Assembly (NCBI GenBank): GCA_913055645.1
Contig: CAJXLC010000016.1
Span: forward strand, 1 to 43,132
Source: an uncultured Pseudomonadota bacterium
Lineage (GTDB): Bacteria > Pseudomonadota > Zetaproteobacteria > Mariprofundales > Mariprofundaceae
Direction of reading: 5' to 3'
Length of the DNA: 43,132 nucleotides
The notes below the pieces were generated by a model, which was not told the DNA's origin, ran no database searches, and worked only from the letters and a program-made list of their open reading frames with translations. The translations under genes and the position numbers were made by a program. This document shows positions 1-5,336 of the stretch, piece after piece (the stretch's first letter is position 1; each line of letters starts with the position of its first letter).

Positions 1-196
1 TTTTTTGAGCGGTATATATGAGCATATCTGGGAGGTAAAAAAATGGCGCAGAGCCAATAATAATAAGTACGAATGTTAAAATCCTTTTTACATCAAATTT
101 CCCATCTTTTTTTACTGCATATTCAAATACCTTCTTTGCAAAAAAAATCGAGGTATCTATTGCTATTTTTGAAGATATCTTCTCAACCAACCACAT
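1..196 (-). CDS. partial putative membrane protein, C-terminus cut by window edge
   Basis: An open frame on the minus strand begins at ATG 196-194 and stays open to base 1, giving 65 codons with no stop. A purine-rich ribosome site (AGGAGAGGG, about 206-214) lies 9 bases upstream. The N-terminal 38 residues are mixed and lysine-rich (start MWLVEKISSK). They are followed from about residue 39 by a hydrophobic stretch (ILTFVLIIIGSAPFFYLP) that looks like a membrane span. I do not recognise the family. The rightward 73-codon frame at 73-294 overlaps it antisense, is almost all L/S/Y/K and has no ribosome site, so I treat that one as the shadow. The gene is divergent from the small gene at 321. 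Confidence 0.55.
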   Translation of the reverse strand, partial: MWLVEKISSKIAIDTSIFFAKKVFEYAVKKDGKFDVKRILTFVLIIIGSAPFFYLPDMLIYTAQK

Positions 197-320
197 TATA
201 TTCTTCCCTCTCCTATTACGACTTGCTTCTCAAGTTGATTACAACTAAAGTTTGCTCATTAATTACCGATAGTCAACTGTATTCAATACGTTGAGCTTGA
301 TTTGGGAATAGGAGGGATTG

Positions 321-446
321 GTGGAAATAGTTTTATTTGGACTGGTTGCTTTGGTCGCATTGTTGGTAACTTCATCTATAAACTACATGAATGATCGCCA
401 ACGTCATGAGGTATCTTCTGATTCAGTAGTTTCGTTTGGAAAATAA
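321..446 (+). CDS. small single-span membrane protein, 41 aa
   Basis: A GTG start at 321 follows GGAGG (311-315) by 5 bases, and the frame runs 41 codons to TAA at 444-446. An in-frame TTG at 318 is a less likely start. The N-terminal ~20 residues are a clean hydrophobic helix (EIVLFGLVALVALLVTSSI). A polar tail of about 21 residues follows (NYMNDRQRHE...). The layout resembles small accessory subunits of membrane complexes (CydX- or CcoQ/CcoS-sized), but I see no family motif and assign no function. It stands alone: divergent from the gene at 196 and convergent with yjbQ 204 bases away. The good ribosome site and clear helix are the support; conservation is untested. Confidence 0.5.
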   Translation: MEIVLFGLVALVALLVTSSINYMNDRQRHEVSSDSVVSFGK

Positions 447-650
447 AGAATCGATCGGGTGTTCTGGCAATCAATAAGTTTTGACAGTTATACATTCTAA
501 TTGCATTCATCACCCCTACCTGTCGCTTTTGCAGTAAGCCATCTTGATTAACCCTTTTACGTAACCTTGCATCAACCTAACTCATGGGTAAATCCTAACA
601 TTGTTTTATCACAAACGGTAACCACATAAGCTTCATGATTAAGGTTGTGA

Positions 651-1070
651 CTATTCACCCAATATATGCAAATAAACATGCCTATTAAGTGCATGCGTAC
701 GGTGTTCATAAAGATAAACTGCTTGCCACATGCCTAATCCAAGTCGCCCATTGATAATGGGAACATTCAATGAGATTTGTGTTAACGCCATGCGAATATG
801 CGCGGACATATCATCATCACCTTCATCTCGATGAAGAAACTCAGCATCGCCATCAACCACAAGCCGCGACATAAACATTTCCATATCACGCAACACATCA
901 GGATCAGCATTTTCCTGCACCATCAATGAGCAACTAGTGTGCTGCACAAACAGATTGAGCATACCTGTTTGAATACCCGTTTCATTGACCCAAGCTTGTA
1001 CGTCACGGGTAATATTATAAAAACCGCGTCCTGTTGCTGAAATATTCAAACAATGTTGCTGTTGTATCAT
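651..1070 (-). CDS. yjbQ: YjbQ family (UPF0047) protein
   Basis: The 139-residue product matches the compact UPF0047/YjbQ fold. It has the HTSCSLMVQENADPDV motif near residues 45-60, then HRDEGDDDMSAHIR, and the closing GRLGLGMWQAVYLYEHR block. Family members are reported to have weak thiamine-phosphate synthase activity, but the physiological role is unsettled. I chose ATG at 1070 because it overlaps the xth stop as ATGA (1067-1070), implying translational coupling; a start at 1085 would add five residues inside xth. It is the last gene of uppP-lgt-xth-yjbQ. Confidence 0.88.
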   Translation of the reverse strand: MIQQQHCLNISATGRGFYNITRDVQAWVNETGIQTGMLNLFVQHTSCSLMVQENADPDVLRDMEMFMSRLVVDGDAEFLHRDEGDDDMSAHIRMALTQISLNVPIINGRLGLGMWQAVYLYEHRTHALNRHVYLHILGE

Positions 1071-1825
1071 GATAACTCTGCCCAAACAGGCGCATGATCT
1101 GATGGGCGCTCTTTAGCACGGTAATCGATATGCACTCCGCCAGCCTGAATCTGCAATGCTGAAGTTGCCAAAATATGGTCAATGCGAATGCCCCATTTAC
1201 GACGAAATGCGTTGGAGCGATAATCCCACCAGCTATGCATCGCATCTTCGGGATGCAGTTGACGAATGGAATCATAAAGCCCCAAATCCATGAGTGAGAA
1301 AAACCACTCACGTTCAGGTGTCGAGCACATAATTTTTTCAACCCAACGCGATGGGTCATGAATATCCAAGTCGGCTGGTGCAATATTATAATCACCAAGC
1401 AACACCAACTTTTCATGCCTCTCTAATTCTGTTCTTAGAAAGTCTCGTAGGGCATTGAGCCAACGAAATTTATACTGATATTTATCACAACCCACTTCCT
1501 GACCATTGGGAATATACACATCAATCACACGTACCCCATCAATGGTTGCGGCAAGCAAACGACGTTGTGGATCATCAAGCTTAGGCACATCAAACACCAT
1601 ATCCGTAGCTTCTTCTCGGCTAATCATAGCTACACCATTGTATGTCTTTTGCCCTGAGAACTGCACATGGTAACCCGCAGCTTCAATCTCAGCTTGTGGA
1701 AAGTCTTTGTCTTGTTGCTTGGTTTCTTGCAGCGCCAACACATCAGGTTGTTCGTTCGCTAAATATTCCAACACATGCGGCAATCGAACTTTGAGCGAAT
1801 TCACATTCCACGTTGTAATTTTCAT
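1067..1825 (-). CDS. xth: exodeoxyribonuclease III (AP endonuclease)
   Basis: This 252-residue protein belongs to the exonuclease III/APE1 (EEP) superfamily, which cuts at abasic sites and degrades 3' ends in base excision repair. The active-site landmarks are in order: Asn7 in [14 protein letters not shown], Glu34 in LQETK, the DVYIPNG block, LGDYNIAPADLDIHDP, RIDHILAT and the C-terminal SDHAPVWAEL with the catalytic Asp-His pair. Length is usual for bacterial ExoA/Xth. The ATG at 1825 overlaps the lgt stop (ATGA, 1822-1825), and its stop overlaps the yjbQ start. The repair gene is therefore translationally chained to envelope genes. Confidence 0.96.
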   Translation of the reverse strand: MKITTWNVNSLKVRLPHVLEYLANEQPDVLALQETKQQDKDFPQAEIEAAGYHVQFSGQKTYNGVAMISREEATDMVFDVPKLDDPQRRLLAATIDGVRVIDVYIPNGQEVGCDKYQYKFRWLNALRDFLRTELERHEKLVLLGDYNIAPADLDIHDPSRWVEKIMCSTPEREWFFSLMDLGLYDSIRQLHPEDAMHSWWDYRSNAFRRKWGIRIDHILATSALQIQAGGVHIDYRAKERPSDHAPVWAELS

Positions 1826-2628
1826 GCTTTCTTACCTTTATACACAAGCCAAAAAATCCAAGTCAAACCTACTGCTAGCATACTAGAAGATAATACCATG
1901 CCCATGGTCAACCAATCACCATAGAGGAATCCGAGCTGTACATCAGGTTGGCGAAAGTTCTCACAAAAAATACGCGCCAATGCATAACCCACCAAAAATA
2001 CTGCCACACGCATGCCCAACGGCCAATCAAATTTGCGTGTAAACCACAGCAGCAAGAATAGAACAATGCCTTCCAATGTGAGTTCATACAATTGACTTGG
2101 GTGGCGTGGGTAAGGCCCCGCGCTTGGAAAAATCATTGCCCAAGGCACATCGGCAGGGTTTGTGACAACCCGCCCCCAAAGCTCACCATTGATAAAGTTA
2201 CCCATACGCCCAAATGCCAAACCAATCGGCGCAACCACAAAAAACTTATCCATCAATAACATAAATGGCATAGCATGTTTTCGGCAATACCACCAACCTG
2301 CCACAATCGGACCGACTAGCCCGCCATGAAATGACATGCCACCCTGCCAGATATAGAGTATTTCAATGGGATGACTCATGTAATAGCCAAAATTATAAAA
2401 CAATACATAAGCCAAGCGTCCACCCAATATCACACCAAGAATCAAGGCGGTAAACAGACCTTCATAGGCTTCGGGTTTCACACTCACTTCCCATGCCCCA
2501 CATTCGCGCAATTGTTTGCGCACCAACAACCATACAGCAGAAAAGCCGAACACATACATCAACCCATACCAATGAATCGCTAACGGCCCTAATTGCAACA
2601 CAACCGGGTCAATATGCGGTGCCATCAT
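1822..2628 (-). CDS. lgt: prolipoprotein diacylglyceryl transferase
   Basis: Lgt moves diacylglycerol from phosphatidylglycerol onto the lipobox cysteine of prolipoproteins in the inner membrane. The product (268 aa from this start) is polytopic and carries the family signature [14 protein letters not shown] near residue 140. It also has the early [12 protein letters not shown] segment and the HPSQLYE motif. I chose ATG 2628 because it overlaps the uppP stop as ATGA (2625-2628). A GTG at 2640 would add four residues and the next ATG (2625) would remove one. The lipoprotein encoded at 25399 would be a client of this enzyme. Confidence 0.95.
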
Positions 2629-3392
2629 GATAAAACCCACAGCAATAAGATTCCGAATAAAATTCGGTACACACCAAATGCGACAAAGGTAAAGCGTTCA
2701 AGAAAGTGAATAAACAAACGCATCACTAACCATGCTGAAACAAAAGCAACCACAAAGCCTGTCAGCAATACCATCCAATCTGCGCCCACAAAATCTTGGT
2801 AATGCTTAAGTAAATCAAAACCACTGGCTGCCATCATCACAGGCAATGCCAATAAAAATGAGAATTCGGCACTCGCCTTACGACTCAAACCAACCAACAT
2901 CGCACCAATAATGGATGAGCCAGCTCGACTTGTACCTGGAATCAAGGCAAAGACTTGTGCAATACCAATCCATAAAGCTTGTCGATAGCTTACATCCTCA
3001 ACCTTTTGCACAGGGTAAACTTTGTCTTTATGAAAATACTCCACGATAAGAAAAATCACTCCACCAACGATGAACATCACAGCAACAATATCGGTAGTGA
3101 ACATAGATTTGATTTGTTTATGAAACAAAAAACCAACAATGCCAAGCGGAATAAAAGCCAAAATAAGCTTTTTCCATAACTCCAGATACACAAAAGAGAG
3201 TTTTTCGCGATAATTCGCAACCACTGCCAAAATTGCCGCCAACTGAATAATCACTTCAAAGGCTTTGTTCTCTTCATTTTGCGCGATGCCCAGCCACTGG
3301 CTGGCAACAATCATGTGCCCAGTCGAAGAAATCGGTAGAAATTCTGTCGCGCCTTCAATCAGTCCTAGAATAATCGACTGTAATATATCCAT
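2625..3392 (-). CDS. uppP: undecaprenyl-diphosphate phosphatase
   Basis: UppP (BacA) dephosphorylates undecaprenyl diphosphate to recycle the lipid carrier for peptidoglycan. The 255-residue polytopic protein carries both signatures: [17 protein letters not shown] near residues 14-30 and [10 protein letters not shown] near residues 153-162. The start is ATG 3392. It is the promoter-proximal gene of the leftward cluster with lgt, xth and yjbQ. The 114-base gap to sppA is divergent and should hold both promoters. MurJ, encoded 5 kb away, flips lipid II on the same carrier, so two steps of the cycle are in this window. Confidence 0.96.
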
Positions 3393-3506
3393 GGTATCCT
3401 GCGCCTCACTTTCGTTGCTTGAATATTCGCAATGCTACGTCTTGCACAGCACAAGCCAAGCTGCCATCGTTGCTGGCGAATTAGAGCGTCTGTAGGAGCG
3501 AACAAT

Positions 3507-5336
3507 ATGAAACGATTATTCTCTGGTAGCTTACGTATATTGGATGCGGTTCGCCGCCTATTTATCAACCTGTTTTTCGCCATATTCCTCATACTTATTC
3601 TTGCCTCCATCTTTCAAAATGAAAAAAAATTACCCGATGAAGCTGTATTGCTTATCGAGCCGAAAGGGCAACTGGTCGAGCAAATAAGCCAGCCATCTGC
3701 CGATGCCCTCCCCTTCGCTTTTCCAAATGCAAATCAAACAAAACTGCGTGATCTAACCAAAGCACTGGCGTTGGCGCGTGATGATGAACATATCTTGGCA
3801 GTCAAATTGGATGTAAAAGCATTGCAGCGTACATCATTGGCGAAGTTACAAATATTACGTGCTGCGATTGAAGATTTTAAACAAAGTGGTAAGCCCGTCT
3901 TGGCATCTGGCAATGCTTATAGCCAATCGCAATATTATTTAGCAGCAAGTGCCAATACCGTATTTTTGCATCCCATGGGCATGATTGAACTGACTGGTTT
4001 CTCTGTTTATCGCAATTATATCCACACCGCACTGGATAAACTCAATGTCGATGTGCATGTATTCCGCGTGGGCGAATATAAATCTGCGGTTGAACCATTT
4101 ATTCGTGATTCTATGTCCGATGCAGATCGTAAATCAAACAGCGTATGGCTCAACAGTTTATGGCATGCCTACAAACAAGACATCGCCAGCATGCGCGGTA
4201 TTAAAAGCGAACGCCTACAACAAATTCTTGATAACTCAGCAAGCTTTTTAAGCCAACATAAAGGCGATGTCGCAGCACTATTTAAGGCGGAACATCTGGT
4301 TGATCAACTGGGTGATGAAAGTGATGCCGAAGCATACTTGCTCAAACAACTCAAATGGTCGAAACAAGACGATATTCCATCCATCAGCAGCAAAGATTAT
4401 TTGAAATTAGCAGTAACCAAAGACAACAAACCATCCGATCAAGCAAAAGTAGGATTGATTGTGGCAAGTGGACCTATTTTAGATGGTGAACAACCTGCTG
4501 GTAGCATTGGCAGCAAAACACTCACAAAATTATTGCGCAAAGCACAAAACGATGAGCAAATCAAAGCGGTTGTGTTGCGCATTGATAGCCCCGGTGGTTC
4601 AGCACTTGCTTCAGAAGTTGTGCGCAAAGGCGTCGCACGTTTACGTGCTGCGGGCAAGCCTGTTGTGGTTTCTATGGGTAGTGTTGCCGCTTCAGGTGGT
4701 TATTGGATTGCTTCGACTGCCGATGAAATTTGGGCGCAACCCACAACATTAACAGGTTCTATCGGCGTATTTGGCATGGTTCCCAATTTCGCCAATGCGT
4801 TAAATCATATGGGTATTCATACCGATGGTGTAGGCACCACGAAAATGGCAGCTGCGATGCGTACGGATATGCCATTATCCGAAGATATGGGAGCCGTCAT
4901 TCAAATGGGTGTGGATCATATTTACCAACGTTTTATTCACCTTGTTGCAACAGGTCGCCATATGAAAGTATCTGATGTGGAAGCTATCGCGCAAGGGCGT
5001 GTTTGGAGTGGTGTGGATGCCCATCGTTTGGGGCTGGTTGATAAGCTTGGTAACTTACAAGATGCCATCAAATCCGCCGCCAAGCGCGGTGGTATTAGCG
5101 ATCATTACCAGCTTGAAGAAGTCAAACCACCTCTGAGTTTCCCTGAAATGATTGCAGAGAAGCTACTTGGTGATGCTGATGCACTAGCAGAATTACAAAC
5201 AACACTGTTCGGCAGCAATCAATATGCCGAACTATGGCAAAACACCGCACTACAAGTTGTATTTCAGCCCTTATATGTACTGACTCAATTCAATGACCCC
5301 AATTATATTTATGCTTATAGTGAATTGCCTTATTAA
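3507..5336 (+). CDS. sppA: signal peptide peptidase SppA, 67-kDa type
   Basis: SppA is a membrane-anchored serine protease that degrades leftover signal peptides. The open frame reaches back to 3432, but TAGGAG at 3493-3498 sits 8 bases before ATG 3507. From there the product is 609 aa, close to the long E. coli form. One hydrophobic anchor spans residues ~18-36. Both tandem S49 domains are present. The catalytic lysine is K192 in RVGEYKSAVEPF and the nucleophile is S396 in MGSVAASGGYW. Both are intact, so the enzyme should be active. The preceding IDSPGGSALASE block is also typical. It is divergent from uppP and looks monocistronic. Confidence 0.95.
   Translation: MKRLFSGSLRILDAVRRLFINLFFAIFLILILASIFQNEKKLPDEAVLLIEPKGQLVEQISQPSADALPFAFPNANQTKLRDLTKALALARDDEHILAVKLDVKALQRTSLAKLQILRAAIEDFKQSGKPVLASGNAYSQSQYYLAASANTVFLHPMGMIELTGFSVYRNYIHTALDKLNVDVHVFRVGEYKSAVEPFIRDSMSDADRKSNSVWLNSLWHAYKQDIASMRGIKSERLQQILDNSASFLSQHKGDVAALFKAEHLVDQLGDESDAEAYLLKQLKWSKQDDIPSISSKDYLKLAVTKDNKPSDQAKVGLIVASGPILDGEQPAGSIGSKTLTKLLRKAQNDEQIKAVVLRIDSPGGSALASEVVRKGVARLRAAGKPVVVSMGSVAASGGYWIASTADEIWAQPTTLTGSIGVFGMVPNFANALNHMGIHTDGVGTTKMAAAMRTDMPLSEDMGAVIQMGVDHIYQRFIHLVATGRHMKVSDVEAIAQGRVWSGVDAHRLGLVDKLGNLQDAIKSAAKRGGISDHYQLEEVKPPLSFPEMIAEKLLGDADALAELQTTLFGSNQYAELWQNTALQVVFQPLYVLTQFNDPNYIYAYSELPY

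Follow-up and report, generated by a model that had tools for sequence, protein, structure and literature searches.

The locus and the candidate gene

The stretch of DNA analysed here (hereafter the window, 43,132 nucleotides) is the whole of contig CAJXLC010000016.1 (C16) from an uncultured bacterium of the Mariprofundaceae (Zetaproteobacteria; assembly GCA_913055645.1), whose genome comprises 1.88 Mb in 56 contigs, and it begins at the first base of that contig. Close to this end, positions 321 to 446 of the forward strand form a reading frame of 41 codons, with a GTG start at 321 and a TAA stop at 444–446, whose translation of 41 residues is MEIVLFGLVALVALLVTSSINYMNDRQRHEVSSDSVVSFGK. The features of this candidate small membrane protein gene are as the initial annotation described them (GGAGG before the GTG start, an N-terminal helix and a short polar tail), and the N-terminal hydrophobic stretch that precedes the polar tail reaches a highest 17-residue Kyte-Doolittle mean of 2.59. 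The in-frame TTG at 318 was rejected as a better start because it lies too near the GGAGG. The features of the region are collected in Table 1.

Table 1. Features of the first 1,070 positions of the window that bear on the 41-codon frame.
Feature	Position	Strand	Basis or remark
Candidate ribosome-binding site GGAGG	311–315	+	Read directly; 5-nt spacer to GTG 321
Frame of 41 codons beginning with GTG; a single membrane span predicted at about residues 3–22, then a polar tail	321–446	+	
Divergent frame of at least 65 aa, hydrophobic stretch, no relatives	2–196	-	Truncated by contig end
Imperfect palindrome TCAAC-T-GTATT-C-AATAC-GTTGA between the divergent starts	273–294		Read by eye
Decayed remnant (3' end, roughly the last 35 codons) of a REP-associated (Y1) tyrosine transposase gene	475–584	-	Homology to intact G015 copy
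Gene of the UPF0047/YjbQ family, at which the block conserved among close relatives ends	651–1070	-	PF01894, E 2e-38

Chance expectation of the frame

The length of the frame is in itself no evidence, given that some frame of at least 41 aa occurred in 4,606 of 5,000 dinucleotide shuffles of positions 1–650. A frame of this length with GGAGG 4–9 nt before its start was present in 33 of the 5,000 shuffles, and in 3 of them when a helix-like stretch (mean of at least 1.8) was also required; a separate run gave 16 of 3,000 for frame plus GGAGG and 4 of 3,000 with a hydropathy mean of at least 1.6. A second test took the intergenic gaps of the window that measure 100 bases or more (15 gaps, 3,967 bases in total; 1,000 shuffled sets) and counted relaxed candidates, that is, frames of 25–80 aa with one of four strong site pentamers and a hydropathy of at least 1.6. 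Such candidates arose at 0.072 per shuffled set and were present in 72 of the 1,000 sets, a length of at least 41 together with a hydropathy of at least 2.5 was found in a single frame across all of them, and in the real gaps 321–446 is the sole relaxed candidate. The combination of strong site, frame and helix exceeds chance; the length of the frame alone does not. The figures of both tests flatter the frame, since the criteria were chosen after it was known.

Search for relatives

Relatives of the product were sought in 10 other congeneric genomes and in sets of 78 class and 398 phylum genomes, which overlap and include the window's own genome. Matches were obtained in four other genomes of the class set at E up to 1 and in three of the phylum set at E up to 0.1, and of these seven (one antisense, five in frames of 77 to 741 aa) none looks convincing as a relative. 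The three from the phylum set (E 0.011–0.097 per genome; frames of 487, 77 and 192 aa) are at chance level for 398 genomes. The best match at genus and family level (G018, E 0.53) lies antisense inside a gene read as cysteine desulfurase, two class-set matches (L017 and L018) fall within frames of 714 and 741 aa, and another (L016) corresponds to a 50-aa frame with 28% identity at E 0.26. Two other phylum-level matches had E values of 0.78 and 1.1, in frames of 45 and 2,852 aa.

Among 50,697 phage and 72,556 plasmid records, tblastn gave no match at E up to 10, and an exact eight-residue pattern from the product had none in the genome or viral contigs, a result that excludes very close relatives only. 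Neither Pfam nor NCBIfam yielded a family at an E limit of 10, where most matches above about 0.1 are removed by the HMMER filters, and no PDB chain or PADLOC entry was matched. Short queries are workable in the phylum search: with 32 residues of the transposase scar, a relative of 52% identity was recovered at E 2.5e-4. PHROG 7160 (63 positions, function unknown) matched residues 3–28 at E 0.013, over the hydrophobic stretch only. At E up to 1 this profile also responds in 7 of 11 genomes of the genus and in 12 of 14 controls, in some places across stops, so that its weak match carries no information. At the DNA level, positions 283–327, across the ribosome-binding site, match G004 (E 4e-4) within a long coding frame read as PdxB-like, and this candidate was likewise set aside. 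The matches of 97–125 and 33–67 in family genomes are short and AT-rich, and a 43-base match to a Vibrio plasmid has an E value of 0.01.

These searches bear on the idea that 321–446 encodes a small hydrophobic toxin of a type I toxin–antitoxin system, controlled by an antisense RNA, which is the least probable of the readings considered here. The size and shape of the product are all that agrees with it, against the lack of any Pfam, NCBIfam or PADLOC match; moreover, positions 1–4000 contain no Rfam match except a sub-threshold chance match elsewhere, no promoter-like site lies on the opposite strand near the frame, and there are no direct repeats.

The transposase remnant and gene turnover next to yjbQ

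Approximately 30 bp after the stop of the 41-codon frame lies the scar of a transposase gene. When positions 1–650 were searched against the 74 family genomes, its DNA (481–584) gave one strong match, of 83% identity, to G015:C80, and a weaker one (76% over 519–584) to G043. For the peptide read from its minus strand (ARLRKRV...), a limit of E 0.01 in the phylum set of 398 genomes left matches in G015 and in the window's genome, and in no other. At one of the two G015 places, G015:C11, 31 of its residues align at 52% identity with the C-terminal end of an intact 317-aa frame, which matches PF01797 (E 7e-14), has a weak DnaA-like C-terminal part and scores 65.5 bits against NF047646 (REP-associated tyrosine transposase), below the cut-off of 80. 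The copy in the window has in-frame stops upstream, and the window's genome holds no second match of that transposase at E up to 0.01. Positions 475–584 are identified, from this homology to the C-terminal end of an intact Y1 protein, as the tail of a dead REP-associated (Y1) transposase gene, and the 41-aa frame lies on the opposite strand from this remnant and is unrelated to it in sequence. An integron cassette had been considered for the conserved element 481–584 and was dropped once the intact transposase was found.

The relative of the scar in G015 (L025, 83% DNA identity) is located near tRNA genes. A match to the group II intron family RF00029 (53.8 bits, L025 2123–2198, plus strand) lies close to the remnant, which suggests a site struck by several mobile elements. 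A 79-aa frame of the same locus (1598–1837, plus strand; CPHQQYCSNGACQQ...) has relatives of 39–53% identity on five plasmids of varied bacteria, and Pfam gave nothing for it with E values up to 1.

With a scar about 30 bp off its 3' side, a junction near the stop is plausible, and 321–446 could in principle be what is left, at the N-terminal side, of a larger gene for a membrane protein that was cut short by insertion of the segment or by movement of the transposase. This is judged highly improbable, given that none of the nine stop-to-stop pieces of 1–733 has a significant Pfam family and that none was found for 321–446 either.

Comparison with close relatives places the region at the edge of a conserved block. 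DNA matches to window positions 1–1900 were found in nine of the 10 other congeneric genomes and reach leftmost to 644–652 in G002, G007 and G003 and to 1062–1079 in the other six, so that either yjbQ or the exonuclease-like gene forms the limit of the conserved block. The YjbQ protein is 96% identical in G002, 93% in G007 and 78% in G003. Beyond yjbQ, G002 and G007 have a common gene set that differs from that of the window: in place of 1–650 they carry two frames, a long one whose start resembles a signal sequence and another of some 100 aa (L007 1–1440, L008 1–655), and the G002 stretch is not found in the window's genome except for a 33-base match. G003 has yet other genes at this point. 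The presence of different genes beyond yjbQ in these relatives marks the site as a junction of gene turnover, and both this junction and the low GC content of positions 1–650 (31–39%, vs about 40–50% further in) agree with the transposase scar. The initial annotation held that lack of conservation in close relatives would speak against the gene; 321–446 is indeed unconserved, in the sense that the orthologous DNA, the whole segment, is absent there, and not that the frame is broken. The other neighbours are presumably exonuclease III-, lgt- and uppP-like genes, plus one unknown frame.

The divergent frame and the shared intergenic region

The contig begins inside the frame 2–196 of the minus strand, so that only its first 65 codons are seen. 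Among the 78 class genomes it is found in its own genome only, nothing was confirmed in the genome or viral contigs, and searches of phages and plasmids gave single matches at E 3 and E 9, respectively; DUF6773 (E 0.015; 15.5 bits vs a cut-off of 27) was rejected. The palindrome at 273–294 is a possible operator, and the RNA fold of 262–325 is no better than those of shuffles (z -0.80). A second GGAGG, at 31–35, with a well-spaced ATG opens a frame of five codons at 43–60 of the plus strand (ATG GCG CAG AGC CAA TAA), antisense to the divergent gene, and constitutes a strong start site without a gene.

Two roles had been proposed for the 41-residue product: the regulation or stabilisation of a membrane complex, and joint action with the divergent gene. 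Neither proposal gained support: the two frames have no relatives in the collections searched, and their linkage is consequently not comparable across genomes. In its fullest form, the proposal would make them a new lineage-specific pair of membrane proteins, in which the 41-residue one controls the other, sharing the operator at 273–294 and carried into the yjbQ junction with the REP-associated transposase; such an arrangement is considered improbable.

Interpretation and coding signal

The frame, its GGAGG site, the hydrophobicity, the lack of relatives and the adjoining transposase scar are observed, whereas translation, membrane insertion, topology and any partner are inferred. The most likely reading, put at a little under an even chance, is that 321–446 is a lineage-specific gene for a small single-span membrane protein, situated on short imported or relocated DNA. 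The odds that a protein is translated from it are about even. Low GC, absence from relatives and the transposase scar fit imported or rearranged DNA, which would explain both the orphan status of the frame and its odd codon use. Of the initial interpretation, the small single-span shape and the good ribosome-binding site stand, and are better than chance; the functional claims do not.

Several results weigh against the frame being such a gene. No relative was found in any collection searched, the 10 other congeneric genomes included, and a scan of 1–1100 revealed neither a sigma-70-like promoter upstream nor a terminator-like site downstream. The synonymous codon score is -2.6 bits, where the noncoding reference (codons drawn from base composition) gives -6.4 ± 4.3 and the native one (32 window genes) +6.0 ± 3.8 bits; by two normal curves this is approximately 7.6 to 1 for noncoding, and codon choice leans toward noncoding or foreign DNA. 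GGAGG at a similar spacing precedes 4 of the 32 window genes examined, so that the strong site is not a usual signature of the genome, and the GGAGG and ATG at 31–60, with no gene behind them, imply that a good start site in this segment is not necessarily the sign of a gene. When 301 pieces of forty codons from window genes were scored for general codon use, just 8% fell below 321–446, whose score is barely above that of the next reading frame. The synonymous score of the divergent frame is -3.6 bits and that of yjbQ +18.9 bits; as 2–196 also scores low, the low score of 321–446 may mean foreign DNA.

Nearly as likely, and also somewhat short of an even chance, is that 321–446 is open by chance, in intergenic DNA undergoing decay, and that its GGAGG is fortuitous; it would then yield no protein, or a peptide without selected function. 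Frames of this length arise in most shuffles of the region, relaxed look-alikes at about 0.07 per window of gaps amount to a few per genome of such size, and the debris of a dead transposase gene, the lack of conservation and a codon choice closer to the noncoding expectation all agree with it; what it has to accommodate is the full combination with a hydropathy of at least 2.5, seen once in 1,000 shuffled sets.

If 321–446 is the gene of a small membrane protein, ribosomes would initiate at GTG 321 through the GGAGG, and the N-terminal helix of the 41-residue peptide would itself bring about insertion into the membrane. With R26, R28 and H29 after the span and E2 before it, the positive-inside rule would place the tail in the cytoplasm. 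The target of the peptide would be a larger membrane protein against which it lies, and the product of the divergent gene is one candidate. If translated, 321–446 would exemplify a membrane micro-protein, young or imported, at a site of genome turnover, and could help in studying the origin of such genes; at present it belongs to the many short frames undecidable by sequence alone.

Comparison with known small membrane proteins

CydX, AcrZ, KdpF and CcoQ are small single-span membrane proteins of the accessory-subunit type. Profiles of the CydX, AcrZ, KdpF or CcoQ type were not matched by the product in Pfam, NCBIfam or PDB chains, and no bd oxidase, cbb3 oxidase, Kdp or RND gene was recognised, by reading, beside the frame; AcrZ is not known to be operon-linked to its partner, so that linkage is uninformative in its case. 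AcrZ acts on AcrB (PMC7267776). Conservation among other microorganisms is one search criterion for small membrane proteins in PMC10903887, one on which 321–446 would fail. This paper and PMC4325964 serve as context only, and a literature search on small proteins in Zetaproteobacteria yielded two papers, neither of them on that subject. The families of CydX, AcrZ, KdpF and CcoQ are conserved, whereas 321–446 has no relatives and its orthologous DNA is absent from close relatives; what its product shares with all four is the shape class, a short frame (41 aa) with one membrane span (hydropathy 2.59).
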